Shown here: positions 8,858 to 31,085 of the stretch, piece by piece
How positions within the stretch are numbered: position 1 is the first letter of the stretch
Layout of the letters: each line of letters begins with the position of its first letter
NCBI RefSeq assembly: GCF_001584725.1
Contig: NZ_CP014606.1
Coordinates: 620,001-684,000 of the forward strand
Reading direction: 5' to 3'
DNA length: 64,000 nt
Origin: an endosymbiont 'TC1' of Trimyema compressum
Lineage (GTDB): Bacteria > Bacillota > TC1
Notes under the pieces: model-generated
What the model was told of the DNA's origin: nothing
The model's input: the letters and a program-made list of their open reading frames with translations, nothing else
The model's database searches: none
Translations under genes and position numbers: made by a program

Positions 8858-9290
8858 AATCTATACGCTGCCATTTACAATTGTAGGTGACGGGGAGAAA
8901 ATTCTTAGCCTTGAACAAAAAAGCAGTATAGATTCATTAAAGCCTTCAAAAGTTTTATTAGCAGCAAAAATAGAGTTGGAACTCTATTTAAAAGGAAAGT
9001 TAAAAAAGTTTTCAGTACCTTTGAAAATTGGAGGAACACCTTTTCAAAAAAAGGTTTATGAGGCAATGATGAAAATTCCTTATTGTCAAGTGGCAACTTA
9101 TGGTGAATTAGCAATGAAAGTTGGTTCCCAAAAAGGGGCCAGAGCTGTTGGGGCTGCCTGTAACAGCAATCCCTTGCCAATATTTGTGCCTTGTCATAGA
9201 GTTGTTGGTGTAGGTGGCAAATTAACAGGATTCGCCTATGGCTTATCTTTCAAAAAAACTTTATTAGAAATGGAAAAGAGTAATGATTGA
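8832..9290 (+). CDS. ogt: Methylated-DNA--protein-cysteine methyltransferase
   Basis: 152 residues, a usual length for single-domain Ogt. It removes O6-alkyl groups from guanine in one irreversible transfer to its own cysteine. The active site PCHRVVG is present with Cys121, and the DNA-binding winged helix carries PFQKKVYEAM, IPYCQVATYGELA and ARAVGAA. An AAGGAAGGG site at 8814-8822 supports ATG 8832, which lies inside the tail of the preceding pseudogene. The stop overlaps the next gene by 8 nt. Confidence 0.93.
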   Translation: MDLETLQIEIYTLPFTIVGDGEKILSLEQKSSIDSLKPSKVLLAAKIELELYLKGKLKKFSVPLKIGGTPFQKKVYEAMMKIPYCQVATYGELAMKVGSQKGARAVGAACNSNPLPIFVPCHRVVGVGGKLTGFAYGLSFKKTLLEMEKSND

Positions 9291-10461
9291 AATTGTAACA
9301 TTAGAAAATAAGAAGATTATGTTAGTAGGAACAGCCCATGTTTCTCAAAATAGTGTAGAGGAAGTTGCAACTGTGATTAGAGAAAACAATCCTGAAAGTG
9401 TGGCTATAGAACTTTGTGAAGCTCGTTTTAGAAGAATGGATGGCAGAGATTCAGGCTGGGAGAACTTAGATATTGAATCTGTTTTAAAAAAAGGGCAAGG
9501 AATGCTTATGATTGTTAACTTTTTCTTATCTTCCTATCAAAAGAAAATAGGGGAATCTTTAGGAGTAAAACCAGGGGCTGAAATGGCGAAAGCTGTTGAG
9601 GTAGCTAGAGAAGAAGGCGCAACGATTACTTTGGCTGATAGAGATGTTACAGTCACTTTAAGAAGAGTTTTAGTTCATTTGAAGTTTTGGGAAAAAATGA
9701 AGGGACTTTATAAGCTATTAGTTCTTTATTTTACAGCTGAGGATGATGTAGGAACTGAAGATATTAATGAATCAACTATAGAATCTTTAAAAAATCAAGA
9801 AACCATTGCTGCAAGTCTAGATCAATTAGGTTCAGTTTTCCCTTCTGTAAAAAAATATTTAGTAGATGAAAGAGATTCTTACTTAGCTTATAAGATTGGT
9901 AAAAGCCCAGGAGAAACTGTTGTTGCTGTTTTTGGGGCTGCCCATTTAGAAGGCGTTAAGAAACATTTAATTAACAATGATGTTACATCAGAATATATAA
10001 AGGAAATAAGCCAGATTCCTAAAAAGAAAAAGACAGGTTCTTGGATTGCCTTAGGGTTGTTAATTCTTTTTATAATATTGGTAGCTGTTACATTCAGTGC
10101 AAATCCAACTGTTGGGGCATCAAATATTGGTTATTGGCTAATTTTAACCTGTACTTTAGGAGGCTTTGGTGCTTTATTAGCTGGGGGGCATCCATTGACT
10201 ATACTAGCGGCAATTATTGGGTCCCCGATTGGGGCTGCATTGCCTTTTGTGGCCAGTGGCATGATTAGTGGATTAGTTGAAGCTAAAGTAAGAAAGCCTC
10301 AAGTTAAAGATTTTGAAAGCTTGAATACTGCTATTTTCACATTTAAGGGGTGGTGGCAAAATAAGATTTTAAAAATATTTAATGTTTTCTTTTTAACTTC
10401 TATGGGAAGCGCTATTGGAAATATTTTAGGACTTAAAAATATATTGGAAGGCTTTTTTTGA
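9283..10461 (+). CDS. TraB/PrgY-family membrane protein
   Basis: 392 residues. The N-terminal two thirds is the TraB domain (Tiki/EreA/GTPBP2-like superfamily): GTAHVSQNSVEEV near residue 16, then VAIELCEARFRRM, and FGAAHLEGVKKHL near 220. The last third carries about four hydrophobic segments (near residues 255-275, 285-330 and 360-390) that should anchor it in the membrane. The family includes enterococcal PrgY/TraB, which reduce peptide-pheromone activity, but most clostridial and archaeal members have no known role, so no substrate is assigned. It overlaps ogt by 8 nt and is probably cotranscribed. Confidence 0.85.
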   Translation: MIEIVTLENKKIMLVGTAHVSQNSVEEVATVIRENNPESVAIELCEARFRRMDGRDSGWENLDIESVLKKGQGMLMIVNFFLSSYQKKIGESLGVKPGAEMAKAVEVAREEGATITLADRDVTVTLRRVLVHLKFWEKMKGLYKLLVLYFTAEDDVGTEDINESTIESLKNQETIAASLDQLGSVFPSVKKYLVDERDSYLAYKIGKSPGETVVAVFGAAHLEGVKKHLINNDVTSEYIKEISQIPKKKKTGSWIALGLLILFIILVAVTFSANPTVGASNIGYWLILTCTLGGFGALLAGGHPLTILAAIIGSPIGAALPFVASGMISGLVEAKVRKPQVKDFESLNTAIFTFKGWWQNKILKIFNVFFLTSMGSAIGNILGLKNILEGFF

Positions 10462-10485
10462 AATATTTAAGTAAAGGAGTTTTAG

Positions 10486-11213
10486 ATGGAGAAGCGATTA
10501 GTATTACTTGAAGGTGCTTATAATGTGCGAGATTTAGGGGGTTATCCTACTAAAAGTGACAAAGAAACCAAATGGGATCGATTTTATAGGGGGATGGTCT
10601 TCAAGGATTAACCGAAAATGATATTGCTATTTTGAAATCAAAAAATATTCTTTTAGATATTGATTTAAGAAGCCAAAGTGAAATTGATAAAAATATTGAT
10701 AGATTAAAAGGTGTTAAAGGAATGGCTTATGCCTCTATTTCACTATTAAGTATTTTTGAAGATCAAATTAAGGATTTATCCAAGGCTGATTTTTCTAAAA
10801 TACCTAAATCCTTAGGTGAATTTTATATTATGGTTTTACATTATTGTCAGGAGGGATTTAGAGAAGTTTTCAAATTAATAGGAAGTAGAGAAGAGGCGGC
10901 TATTCTGTTTCATTGTTCTGTTGGTAAAGATAGAACAGGTTTAATTGCAGCTTTACTTTTAAATCTTGTAGGTGTTTCAGATAAGGTGATTGTTGAAGAT
11001 TATGCTTATTCAGGAGAAAATATTGGACCTGTCATTAAGAAATACGAAAATATGAATGAAGAATATCTGAAACCTTTTCTAGTTGCAGGACCTGAGGCTA
11101 TGGAAACTTTCCTGAGTGAATTAAATAGAACCTATGGTAACAGTGAAGGTTTTTTAAAGCATTTAGGATTGTCTAATAAGGTGATTCAAAATATTCAAGG
11201 TACATTTGTTTAG
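10486..11213 (+). pseudogene. Tyrosine/serine phosphatase (Y_phosphatase3 type), frameshifted
   Basis: Start ATG 10486 follows AAAGGAG. The N-terminus (YNVRDLGGYPTKS) and the P-loop HCSVGKDRTG near 10913-10945 (Cys-x5-Arg) identify a protein-tyrosine phosphatase of the bacterial Y_phosphatase3 family. The frame breaks in the G run at 10589-10593: with six Gs it would read FYRGDGLQGLTENDIAIL and continue to 11213; with five it stops at once. The catalytic part remains open from about 10632 (193 residues), but without the N-terminal strand it is unlikely to fold. The single mononucleotide-run lesion could be a mutation or a base-call error. Confidence 0.85.
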
Positions 11214-24259: not shown

Positions 24260-24302
24260 AGGCCCATTAAATACAAATTGTATTTAATGGGCCTTTGTTT
24301 GA
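24260..24302 (+). terminator. Strong intrinsic terminator after the activase gene
   Basis: A perfect 15-bp stem (24260-24274 with 24280-24294, loop AAATT) is followed by a T-rich tract. It lies 9 nt after the activase stop and closes the intact left part of the window. Confidence 0.88.
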
Positions 24303-24309
24303 TTTTAAT

Positions 24310-24910
24310 TTAAAACTGAATAATGCCTTGTTCTACTTTGCCAATTATTTGAACTGAGAATTTTTCTAAATCATCTTCATTATAAAAGAAAGCTTCAGCT
24401 CTGGGATTTATTCCTGCAAAGTTAATACCATTATCTAAATATTTTATTAATCTTACATTAACTTCTGTTTTCTTTTTCCTTTTGCAGAAAAGACTACTAA
24501 GTCACCATTTTTAATTTGTGTTTTTGAGGCCTTTCTAACAATTACGATATCGCCGACTTTTAGTCTAGGTTCAAGGGAATTTTTAATGACTGACATGGCA
24601 AAATAATTTTTATAATCATCACCATTAGAGGCTACATTTATATAACCTAAAACATCTTTTTGATTTTCAATGGGTGTATTGGGAAGAAGAATTTTAAAGG
24701 TTGGAATTTGATATTTAGTATTATTTTTAGGACATAAAAGAGGGTTATCTGATAAATATTAATGTCTTTTTTTATTCTCTTAAATTCTTATTCTAATTTT
24801 GCATGTCTTTCTTCTAAGTCTTTTTCTCTTTCTTCAAGATCTTTTGAATTTGACTGTCTTAAATCTATATACGTCACATCACCATCGTTAGCAAAGTAAT
24901 TATCACTCAT
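24310..24910 (-). pseudogene. S24-type (LexA/CI-like) repressor, decayed
   Basis: Read on the minus strand, ATG 24910 follows AAAGGA and gives MSDNYFANDGDVTYIDLRQ, then a charged helix ending in a TAA stop near 24789. A later frame gives KDVLGYINVAS, SLEPRLKVGDIVIVRKAS and KNGDLVVF, the core of an S24 peptidase domain with the Glu-Pro-Arg block that follows the catalytic serine; the serine itself appears replaced (KNSLEP). The C-terminal half runs to a stop at 24310. No helix-turn-helix is visible. It is probably a degraded paralogue of the intact regulator just upstream. Confidence 0.72.
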
Positions 24911-24927
24911 TTTTCAATCCTTTCGAA

Positions 24928-25569
24928 TCATAGGTTACCAATAATTTTTATGGCTTTTCCTATTACTTTAATTTCCAGCGCTTCTATTTCTTTCAATGTA
25001 TAAAAAGTAGTATTCCATGAAATTAATTGAATACCTTCTGGATGTTTTCTATATTCCTTAATAATCATTTCATTTTGGACAGAGAGAAGTGCAATGTCTC
25101 CATTGTTAACTTCTGACTGTTCTTTTATTATTAGTATATCTCCTGGTAAAATTCTTGGTAACATGCTGTTTCCTTCAACGAGTACAGCAAATATATTGTT
25201 GCCATATTGACTGTAGTAATCTAAATCTAAAGAAACGATTTTAACATTAATTTGTTTAGGCTCTTTAAGTCTAGCGAATGCAGTATTGCAAATGGGTATT
25301 AAATAGTTATTTTTCTGATTGTTACTTGTATTATTAGAAGTTGAGTATTCAGAAGTTAAATCAGTTTCCAGAAGATCATGGATACTGAATTCAAATAGGG
25401 AAGCCAGTTGATAAAGAGTACCACTTCTAGGAATATTTTTACCATTTTCCCATTCAGAAATAGCAGTTGCTTGTTTAGCTATTAATTCACCCATTTTTGT
25501 CTGAGTTAGTTTATTTTTATTTCTTAAGTATTTTATATTATTTGCAAGTATTTTTCTCAACTGTATCAC
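24928..25569 (-). CDS. XRE-family regulator with S24 peptidase domain (CI/LexA-like)
   Basis: 213 residues. The N-terminal helix-turn-helix (about 5-60) has LRNKNKLTQTKMGELIA and ISEWENGKNIPR. The C-terminal S24 domain (about 125-205) has GNSMLPRILPGDILII with the serine nucleophile and IIKEYRKH with the likely catalytic lysine. Such proteins are phage or ICE repressors that cleave themselves after RecA activation. The frame starts at GTG 25569 or TTG 25560. It is intact in an otherwise decayed neighbourhood and stands next to a symmetric operator-like site, an integrase remnant and a second S24 relic. Confidence 0.9.
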   Translation of the reverse strand: MIQLRKILANNIKYLRNKNKLTQTKMGELIAKQATAISEWENGKNIPRSGTLYQLASLFEFSIHDLLETDLTSEYSTSNNTSNNQKNNYLIPICNTAFARLKEPKQINVKIVSLDLDYYSQYGNNIFAVLVEGNSMLPRILPGDILIIKEQSEVNNGDIALLSVQNEMIIKEYRKHPEGIQLISWNTTFYTLKEIEALEIKVIGKAIKIIGNL

Positions 25570-25590
25570 CTATCTTTCGATTAATTAATA

Positions 25591-25603
25591 GTATACACTA
25601 TAC
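25591..25603. promoter_or_regulatory. Dyad operator candidate for the S24 repressor
   Basis: GTATACACTATAC is an inverted repeat (GTATA and TATAC arms, 3-nt centre) 22 nt upstream of the repressor start codon, where an autoregulatory operator would be expected. No binding data can be read from sequence. Confidence 0.45.
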
Positions 25604-25623
25604 AAGATTAAAATTGAAGTTTC

Positions 25624-25674
25624 TTGACAAAGCTCATTTTAAATGATTAAATATAGGTAACTTCATTTAAAATG
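25624..25674 (+). promoter_or_regulatory. Rightward promoter and 11-bp inverted repeat opposite the S24 repressor
   Basis: A perfect -35 TTGACA lies at 25624-25629; TTAAAT at 25647-25652 is a weak -10 at 17 nt spacing. CATTTTAAATG (25635-25645) and CATTTAAAATG (25664-25674) are exact reverse complements flanking the presumed start. Together with the GTATAC dyad this resembles the divergent control region of a temperate element. Confidence 0.45.
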
Positions 25675-25818
25675 AATCTAATAATTAAAAGCTCAAATAT
25701 AAGTAATGAAGGAATTATTATTATTGAGCCAGAACATATATTTTGTAATCTACGTGGGGTACTCTATGGGATGGACGCACTATACAATAATAATTCTTCC
25801 GCCTATATGAAAATCTAA
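25672..25818 (+). CDS. Possible 48-residue small protein
   Basis: An ATG-to-TAA frame encodes 48 residues beginning MNLIIKSSNISNEGIIIIEP and ending YNNNSSAYMKI. It starts just after the rightward promoter and inverted repeat beside the S24 repressor. The only ribosome-site candidate is AGGTAA about 12 nt upstream, which is poor. I do not recognise the protein. The same DNA also has strong pairing potential (25706-25725 with 25786-25801), so it may be an untranslated RNA instead. Confidence 0.25.
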   Translation: MNLIIKSSNISNEGIIIIEPEHIFCNLRGVLYGMDALYNNNSSAYMKI

Positions 25819-25909
25819 GAGTTGTTTTGCAAGCTTTAACAAAGTTAACTCTTTCCTTGTAAGGAGCTATAGGCATTCCTTAGAGTATCCAATTAGGCGA
25901 TTTTTGTGA

Positions 25910-25938
25910 TAGATGGTTAGTTTTGACCATCTATTTTT
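25910..25938 (+). terminator. Intrinsic terminator ending the 25.6-25.9 kb unit
   Basis: TAGATGGT and ACCATCTA form a perfect 8-bp stem (25910-25917 with 25926-25933, loop TAGTTTTG) followed by TTTTT. It closes a promoter-to-terminator unit of about 290 nt that contains at most one small reading frame. Between 25819 and 25909 I see no gene. Confidence 0.7.
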
Positions 25939-26059
25939 CCTTATTAAGTGAATTAACAACTGCTATAATTATTATTAATTTTCAGTCAAAAAAATTATCA
26001 AAATGAGAAAAATTAAAGTTATAATTAGAATATTAAAGACACAAAGTGAGGTAGCAATT

Positions 26060-27654
26060 ATGGATCTTAATGTTAAAGAACTTATAAACTGTCAGTATTT
26101 TTCAAATATAAGGATATTAGCTGGTAAAGAAGGGGTTAATCGACTTGTTAAGCGCGTGAGGATTCTTGAATCCTTAGAAACTAATTTATGTTTTGAAAAT
26201 GGTTAAGTAATTTTAGCTAATAATGAAGGCGTCTTTAATATCCAGATATTTAGTAAAGAGAATATTCGGAAAATGGCAATGAGCAATGTGGCTGCATTAG
26301 TTTTAAAAACAAACTTTAGTGACCATATATTAACTGAAGAGGTGATAAAAGAGGCTAATAATATGAAGATACCAATTATTTATCAGTTTTGGCACTAATG
26401 TATCTACTTTTGATATTAAGCAGTTTATTCATGAAAAATTTATATTTAATAGTAATTGTGAAGCTGAAAGTTATAATCAAGTTTATAATGAGATTGCCGA
26501 AATTGCCTATCAATCTGGGTATGATGGTCTTGTTAAATGCTTTATCAGTGGACTGGACTAGAGGTTATGATTGTAGTAGAAAATAGTATTTATGGGGTTC
26601 CTAAGTCAATAGAGAGCCTGCCATTTAATCCTGAATTTTGGATAAAAAGAATTGTAGTTGGAAAAATGGAAATGAGAATATTCATTGTTACACCCACAAA
26701 AATAATTAGGTAGCACTTGAGTGGATTGGTTTTGATATTGCATATGAGGGGAAAACTGTTGGTTATATTTTTTTATTTACAAATGTTTGTGAAAATATAG
26801 GGGAGGATATATTTTGGCTTTTAAATTATGTTGGCATTCTTTGTAACCTTGAAGTTAGAGGGAAAAAGAAAACTATGATAATGAAGCGTAAATATAAAAG
26901 TGTTTTTTCAAAAAAATCTTTTTAAAAAATAGTAGCACAGCGGATATTGAAAAAGAAGCCCTTGATTTACATTGGACTTTGCCTCCAAGGGCAAGGGTTG
27001 TGCTAATTAAGGGTGTTGACGATTTAACAACGTTAGAAGATGCTGTAGCTATTGTTTATCAAAAAAATTTAATTTCAGGAATTCTTAAGAAAAATTTAGG
27101 GGTTTTAATTATGGATGAAAAAGTAGAAAGTGAATTGAGTATAGAAAAACTCTATCATCAATTGGCTTTGGGCTTTCAGAAATCCCCATTAACTATTGGT
27201 GTAGGCGAGATTATATCCTTTTAGCGAAATTAAAGAAAGTTATTATGAGGCTTTAAAGGCTTTAATAATTAATGATGTAATGGAGATGAAAGCTATTATT
27301 AGGTTTTCTGAATTAGGTTTTTTTAAATTAGTGAAGATTGGACTTGATAATTCTGTAGAAATTAATAGAGAGTTATTTAATTATTACATTCGTTATTTAA
27401 AATCACTTAAAGAGTATAATAATGAAGAGACCTTTGATGTTTTGGTAGAAACGCTAGAAAAATTAATTGCTAATAATTTTAATTATAGTGAAACTGCAGA
27501 AAATCTTTTTATACATGGAAATACTGCTCGTTACAGAGTAGCTTTAGTTGAAAAATTTTGTAAGATAAACTTTAAAAACAGTGAGGATCAATTTAATATG
27601 ATGATTGCACTTAAATTATTACCACTTTTTAAGAAAGTGGAAAGCCTAACATAA
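26060..27654 (+). pseudogene. PucR/CdaR-family transcriptional regulator, multiply broken
   Basis: ATG 26060 follows GAGGT, with an extended -10 (TGCTATAAT, 25961-25969) upstream. The start (LNVKELINCQYFSNIRI, LVKRVRILESLE) matches the PucR N-terminal domain. Stops at about 26204 and several frame changes follow; readable pieces include VAALVLKTNFSDHILTEEV, IAYQSGYDGLV and PPRARVVLIKGVDDL. The last piece (27280-27654) carries the PucR-type C-terminal helix-turn-helix: LIANNFNYSETAENLFIHG then NTARYRV. The family senses purines or sugar acids; the original target is unknown. Confidence 0.82.
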
Positions 27655-27742: not shown

Positions 27743-27950
27743 CTAAAATGTTACTTTTTTATTAATATTTTCATTAACTTTAATAACATAATTATTATAT
27801 TTTCCCTTATACAAATGATTATAAACTTTTAATATCATGCTTGGGTCGCTATGATCTATGAATTTCGCTATTGAATATATTAATTAAGTATGATATACAA
27901 TAGTGCCTAAGACCGTGTATTGAAATACTAGGAAATAACCTTTTAAGTCT
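27743..27950 (-). pseudogene. Tyrosine recombinase (phage integrase) C-terminal remnant
   Basis: On the minus strand, from about 27944, the DNA reads KRLFPSISIHGLRHYCISYL, which carries the Arg-x-x-His box of tyrosine recombinases. After a frame change it reads AKFIDHSDPSMILKVYNHLY, matching the GHSD...T..VYxH box with the catalytic tyrosine, and ends at a TAG at 27745-27743. Only the last ~65 residues of a ~370-residue integrase remain. The rest of the 27655-28017 gap holds nothing else I can support. It fits a decayed prophage or integrative element shared with the nearby S24 repressors. Confidence 0.7.
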
Positions 27951-28017
27951 TATCTGAATACTTTGTCTTAATATGTTACTCATGATTTAAAGCTACTTAA
28001 TCTTAAATTTTGTTATG

Positions 28018-30489: not shown

Positions 30490-31085
30490 ATTTGCAAGTA
30501 AGCGACAATGTCGCCTGAAAAACTACCGTTGTACGGGTGAGATTAAGACTTATAGAAAGAAATTCACCAAACCTTTGATATAATGATGATGTTCAAGCCA
30601 TCAAAATCAAAGAGAAGAGGTGAATTTCTATGAATCAAAAAAAATAAAAAAAATGTACGAGAAATAATAAGGGATTTATGCAAATGGAAAGGAATGGAAA
30701 TAATAGAAGGAAATGTAATGCCAGAGCATATCCATTTGCTAGTATCAAGCCCTCAAAAAACAAGTGTATCAAGTTTTATGGTATATCTGAAGGGAAAAAG
30801 GTGCCATGATGATATTTGATAGACACAGCAATTTGAAATATAAATTTGGTAACAGTCATTTTGGGCAACGGGTTATTATGTAAGAACCGTAGGATTAAAT
30901 GAGCAAACGATAGCAAAATATGTAAGAGAACAAAATACTTATGATCAAGTGATAGATAAGGTGAGTGTAAAATCAGTGCACAATGGCTTGAATAAAATGA
31001 AAGCCAGCACTTTTAGGTGCTGGCAAGTGACAAGCCCTTATAGGACTAGAGTATGCCACCCGTTTTACGAGTGGTCATGACTAAA
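30490..31085 (+). mobile_element. IS200-type element with deleted Y1 transposase
   Basis: The transposase starts at ATG 30630 after AGAGGTG but hits a stop after five codons and lacks about 40 N-terminal residues. The rest reads REIIRDLCKWKGMEIIEGN, then MPEHIHLLVSS with the His-x-His (HUH) motif, SSFMVYLKGKRC and, after frame changes, ATGYYVRTVGLNEQTIAKYV with the catalytic tyrosine region. Hairpins near both ends (about 30522-30538 and 31059-31077) resemble the subterminal hairpins these elements recognise. Exact ends are uncertain. No tnpB is present. Confidence 0.72.

Follow-up and report, generated by a model that had tools for sequence, protein, structure and literature searches.

A probable divergent control region opposite an S24-domain repressor in the Trimyema compressum endosymbiont TC1: probably a relic switch with a short orphan transcript

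An intact CI-like repressor gene of the endosymbiont TC1 lies opposite a short stretch that holds a promoter-like sequence, two perfect 13-bp palindromes with no other exact copy in the genome, and an intrinsic terminator, and the genes around it are broken. It is probable, in our judgement, that a phage-type S24 repressor has its divergent control region here, within a decaying mobile island, and that the short transcript is likely a leftover. The window, that is, the whole stretch of DNA analysed (64,000 nucleotides), covers 620001-684000 of the 1.59 Mb main contig; the genome comprises 1.62 Mb in two contigs. Positions are those of the window unless stated otherwise, and the features are listed in Table 1.

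Table 1. Features of the unit and its surroundings (ribosome-site, folding and search results are given in the text)
Feature	Position	Strand	Remarks
Second S24-domain gene, in pieces	24453-24910	-	directly downstream of the intact repressor
CI-like repressor, intact, HTH and S24 domains	24928-25560, or to 25569 if GTG start	-	Pfam and PHROG
Palindrome GTATACACTATAC, 5-bp arms around 3 bases, holding GTATAC (25591-25596)	25591-25603	.	read from sequence
Candidate promoter of the unit: TTGACA (25624-25629), 17 bases, TTAAAT (25647-25652)	25624-25652	+	read from sequence
Operator candidate 1, perfect 13-bp palindrome TCATTTTAAATGA	25634-25646	.	between -35 and -10
Operator candidate 2, perfect 13-bp palindrome TCATTTAAAATGA	25663-25675	.	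just past the expected transcription start
48-codon ATG frame	25672-25818	+	probably not a gene
28-codon TTG frame	25724-25810	+	register other than that of the 48-codon frame; hydrophobic by eye; weak candidate
Folded domain: closing stem of 10 bp, then an inner stem and a three-way junction that carries two hairpins and the stem GCCTATA/TATAGGC	25757-25890	+	
Intrinsic terminator with a 12-pair stem, a 4-base loop and a T tail	25908-25935	+	only one in 24400-26400, expected 0.5
PucR-like regulator, several broken frames	26003-27654		C-terminal part 2.8e-15, N-terminal part weak match
Integrase-like scrap with HGLRHY motif	27849-27983	-	phage integrase PHROG, E 0.025, weak

Promoter, operator candidates and terminator

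The GTATAC dyad, the TTGACA box and the T-tailed terminator named in a preliminary description of this DNA are all present as described. The compact promoter-to-terminator unit that it recognised opposite the S24 repressor stands as well, and in view of the twin operator candidates and the terminator it is likely to be controlled by the repressor. The palindrome that holds the dyad overlaps a minus-strand TATACT (25590-25595), which is likely the -10 box of the repressor gene. The -10 box of the unit itself is poor and matches the consensus at four of six positions; because it has no A at position 2, the TTGACA promoter is missing from the list returned by the promoter scan. Promoter-like matches in 2 kb, both strands pooled, occur at chance density (13 found versus 11.3 expected). 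The poor -10 box and this density count against the switch reading. From this promoter to the terminator, a transcript would measure approximately 280 nt.

The strongest feature of the unit is the pair of palindromes. They lie 29 bp apart, bracket the -10 box, and are mutually exact inverted repeats; no exact inverted repeat of 13 arose in 500 dinucleotide shuffles of the unit. In the whole genome (1.62 Mb), the pattern TCATTTWAAATGA has these two exact sites only, while 23 places match it with at most one mismatch and 12 places match the pattern read backwards. Among the 44 13-base palindromes of the window, the two are the only pair with the same arms within 80 bp. Repeated palindromes thus placed over a divergent promoter-like sequence make a candidate operator layout of the CI/LexA type, and from their place and form we infer that they are bound by the neighbouring repressor. 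Their perfect state could reflect recent or continuing use, a point to be counted against a relic. Around operator candidate 1, the sequence AAAGCTCA...AATATARGTAA occurs twice (25629-25660 and 25688-25706), the second copy lacking 13 intervening bases that hold most of that operator candidate; this may perhaps be an old local duplication.

Repressor, surroundings and relatives

The repressor combines HTH and S24 domains in one intact protein, as do CI/LexA-type repressors (HTH_3, 2e-9; Peptidase_S24, 2.6e-18), and matches the PHROG family of transcriptional repressors phrog_4 at 6.2e-33. Its start is most likely TTG 25560, giving 210 residues, rather than GTG 25569, with ribosome-site energies of -12.8 and -5.1, respectively. 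In an alignment with homologues, the segments GNSML and IIKEY fall on GxSM and VK, and the Ser and Lys, which we take to be the catalytic residues, are kept. At the position of the cleavage pair, however, the protein has Ala-Arg, with Arg where the Gly of Ala-Gly or Cys-Gly is expected. The 29 aligned homologues have Ala-Gly (21), Cys-Gly (2), Thr-Gly (1) or no pair (2), and three are unscorable. Because Ala-Arg replaces the pair, the protein is classed with the CI-like repressors rather than with the self-cleaving ones. Since Ala-Gly is missing, self-cleavage after DNA damage is less likely than the preliminary description assumed, and the premise that DNA damage governs the unit appears weakened. 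A search with the repressor protein matched 132 of 149 genomes, including its own, the best-scoring other match being 32% identical. Five matches fall in its own genome; among the three listed, one (genome positions 94345-94923) runs across a stop and another (1168471-1168743) covers the S24 part only, in a frame of 107 residues. No relative of the repressor was confirmed in the species-genome (genome_contigs) or viral-contig (viral_contigs) collections.

The family is represented by five other genomes, all of another genus, and the class by ten, own included. In a nucleotide-level comparison with five stretches from the family genomes, and for those stretches only, similarity ends at the end of an activase gene (approximately 24.2 kb) in all four that extend to this point; the fifth stops within the activase gene itself. 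The 7 kb beyond this point contain broken genes and transposase pieces beside the intact repressor. After the PucR-like pieces come transposase pieces with rve and HTH_Tnp_1 domains, presumably of IS3 type, and the same 7 kb also hold an IS200-like scrap. The integrase-like scrap, which has no Pfam match, is a possible trace of the integrase of the element. The neighbouring genes are broken remnants of mobile DNA, probably in a decaying mobile island. A mobile palindromic element was considered and rejected, since a 601-base query from the locus has only one match in the genome.

Relatives of the unit were sought in several collections. A DNA search of 101 genomes, including its own, returned the locus itself and, in three others, weak matches 33-36 bases long; two of these cover 25937-25970, past the terminator, and around the third, where the sequence was read, no similar unit was seen. 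Among the ten class genomes, own included, two others matched over 20 and 24 bases (E 0.003 and 0.009). The phage collection gave seven records (E 0.1-0.4), none convincing, and the plasmid collection gave no match. With a covariance model, no homologue was found in the nine other class genomes or, under stricter filters, in 397 other genomes of the phylum, where one match (22 bits, E 0.07) was taken as chance. The twin-operator pattern is absent from the viral-contig collection and occurs once in the species-genome collection, in a Desulfobacteraceae genome, at a site that looks hairpin-like by eye and beside which no repressor was recognised by eye in the frames of the first 3 kb. That no convincing relatives turned up would fit a young element as well as a decaying one.

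The second contig (35795 bases) encodes Phage_portal, Phage_capsid, terminase, a DnaB/primase-like protein and two Rep3 initiators, with a third Rep3-like protein recognised by eye, and looks like a phage-plasmid. Its minus strand carries at 9278-11023 a 581-codon frame that opens with many tandem repeats of the INIYLC type. Even with one mismatch allowed, TCATTTWAAATGA does not occur on this contig. A 39-column similarity between the unit and this contig, considered as a target or shared site, was dropped because 76 of 500 shuffled queries match its score.

Open frames and folding of the transcript

The 48-codon frame, which the preliminary description offered as a small antirepressor-like protein, is present, but its length is near chance, since 72 of 1000 shuffles contain a frame of at least 48 codons. 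The energy of its ribosome site is -3.8, whereas 21 of 22 long plus-strand genes picked for comparison reach -6.3 or better, and it has no family match in Pfam, NCBIfam or PHROGs. Because of the chance length, the weak ribosome site and the lack of a family match, a gene of 48 codons is unsupported, and the proposed antirepressor is not borne out. The 28-codon TTG frame has the best ribosome site (-6.4) among the frames of at least 10 codons in the transcript, a value at the weak end of real genes, and PHROG gave no match to the 34-codon form that begins at ATG 25706.

The 11-bp inverted repeat pointed out earlier (25712-25722 with 25786-25796) is exact, but equal or longer ones occur in 21 of 500 dinucleotide shuffles, which is near chance. 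The pairing also proposed there (25706-25725 with 25786-25801) can be drawn, and it forms part of the minimum-energy fold of 25659-25805 by itself, but that fold does not beat its shuffles (z 0.22), and the minimum-energy structure for the complete transcript lacks the pairing. A different domain departs further from its shuffles. The stretch 25756-25891 has z -3.23, and none of 200 shuffles is as good, with boundaries picked after the fold was seen; in a window search that allows for the choice of boundaries, the observed energy is attained by four of 400 shuffled versions of the 249-nt body.

The fold is at best mild evidence, because this domain is equalled by 11 of the 124 stretches of matched GC content taken from the window, because plain 160-base windows from 25700, 25720, 25745, 25757 and 25780 rank 418, 561, 67, 153 and 14 of 639 (the last of these includes the terminator), and because the opposite strand of the unit departs slightly further from its own shuffles (z -3.33) than does the transcribed strand (z -2.66). 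Elsewhere in the window, 160-base windows near 30501, 50801, 26901, 24201 and 38701 are much more stable than their shuffles, with z from -5.8 to -4.3. Rfam gave no match at gathering score in the window, hence no known RNA family, and eight sub-threshold matches in 24300-26200 (E 0.38 to 5). An antisense action on the repressor mRNA was also rejected. Among 80 start regions (frames of at least 110 codons in the window and the second contig, plus the TTG start), the two possible repressor starts rank 62 and 75 for pairing with the whole transcript, 15 and 14 with the hairpin loop, and 80 and 79 with the 5' part, the ranks of TTG 25560 for the whole transcript and the loop being 75 and 14.

Explanations and meaning

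In temperate phages, a CI-like S24 repressor is laid out with a divergent early promoter. The present locus resembles such systems (phrog_4 repressors) in the HTH and S24 domains, the divergent promoter-like sequence and the repeated palindromes over the promoter, and differs from them in that a short unit alone stands opposite, with neither a cro-like nor an early gene, in that the repressor lacks the Ala-Gly pair, and in its broken surroundings. Under the relic reading, the repressor, read leftwards, would bind the two palindromes that bracket the rightward -10 box and so shut the promoter off. Should repression fail, the promoter would be used and RNA synthesis would run from the expected start to the unit's own terminator. 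The resulting transcript, apparently with no translated protein, would most likely be what remains of the element's early lytic or transfer side, or at most an untranslated RNA. Because neither a protein nor a conserved RNA is demonstrable, the unit looks like a small switch that an old mobile element left behind, and it is probably an ordinary divergent repressor switch, a relic, with a short orphan transcript. A pure relic, on the other hand, need not show a fold that is somewhat better than shuffles, as is the case here.

The regulatory RNA suggested in the preliminary description is possible in view of the moderate fold, and would be a structured RNA that is freed when the repressor is off and acts on mRNAs in trans. 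It would account for a promoter-like sequence, a fold (z -3.23; four of 400 shuffles) and a terminator occurring together where no gene is supported. Nevertheless, the equally good folds of the GC-matched stretches, the ranks of the plain windows (14 to 561 of 639), the ranks of pairing with the repressor start at TTG 25560 (75 of 80 for the whole transcript, 14 of 80 for the hairpin loop), the lack of an Rfam match at gathering score, and the lack of a convincing homologue in the nine class and 397 phylum genomes make it unlikely. Still less likely is a small peptide, of 48 codons from 25672 or of 28-34 codons from 25724 or 25706, that would serve as a membrane toxin, an antirepressor or a corepressor. 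There are small genes that face an S24 repressor, such as ddrR opposite UmuDAb in Acinetobacter (PMC7273328), where a LexA-like repressor and a small divergently transcribed unit likewise share a promoter region. DdrR is conserved, about 80 residues long and provided with a ribosome site, whereas the unit here has no supported protein: the 48-codon frame is not of this kind, and for the 28-34-codon frame the analysis covered PHROG and the ribosome site. The SOS-controlled type I toxin system tisB/istR is similar in having a repressor-controlled, structured short transcript and a possible small hydrophobic frame, but a conserved peptide was not found in this unit. As to an antisense RNA against a toxin mRNA, promoter-like matches on the two strands together do not exceed chance density. 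The hydrophobicity of the 28-codon frame and its ribosome site speak for a peptide; against it are the chance length, poor ribosome site and missing family matches of the 48-codon frame, and the lack of convincing homologous DNA in the 101 genomes, the class, and the phage and plasmid collections. A chance assembly of promoter-like and stem-like matches in AT-rich intergenic DNA, without any regulation, would agree with the density of promoter-like matches, the chance level of the frame and the 11-bp repeat, and the moderate fold, but it is very improbable in view of a genome-unique palindrome pair placed over a promoter-like sequence and next to the gene of a repressor.

It is improbable that an S24 repressor unable to self-cleave at Ala-Gly holds down a structured, untranslated RNA of approximately 280 nt as its effector, in place of a Cro or an antirepressor. 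If the transcript were a real RNA effector, an RNA output would be added to a type of switch normally tied to proteins. If the unit is a relic, which is more likely, it would show a repressor and its operators outlasting the element from which they came.
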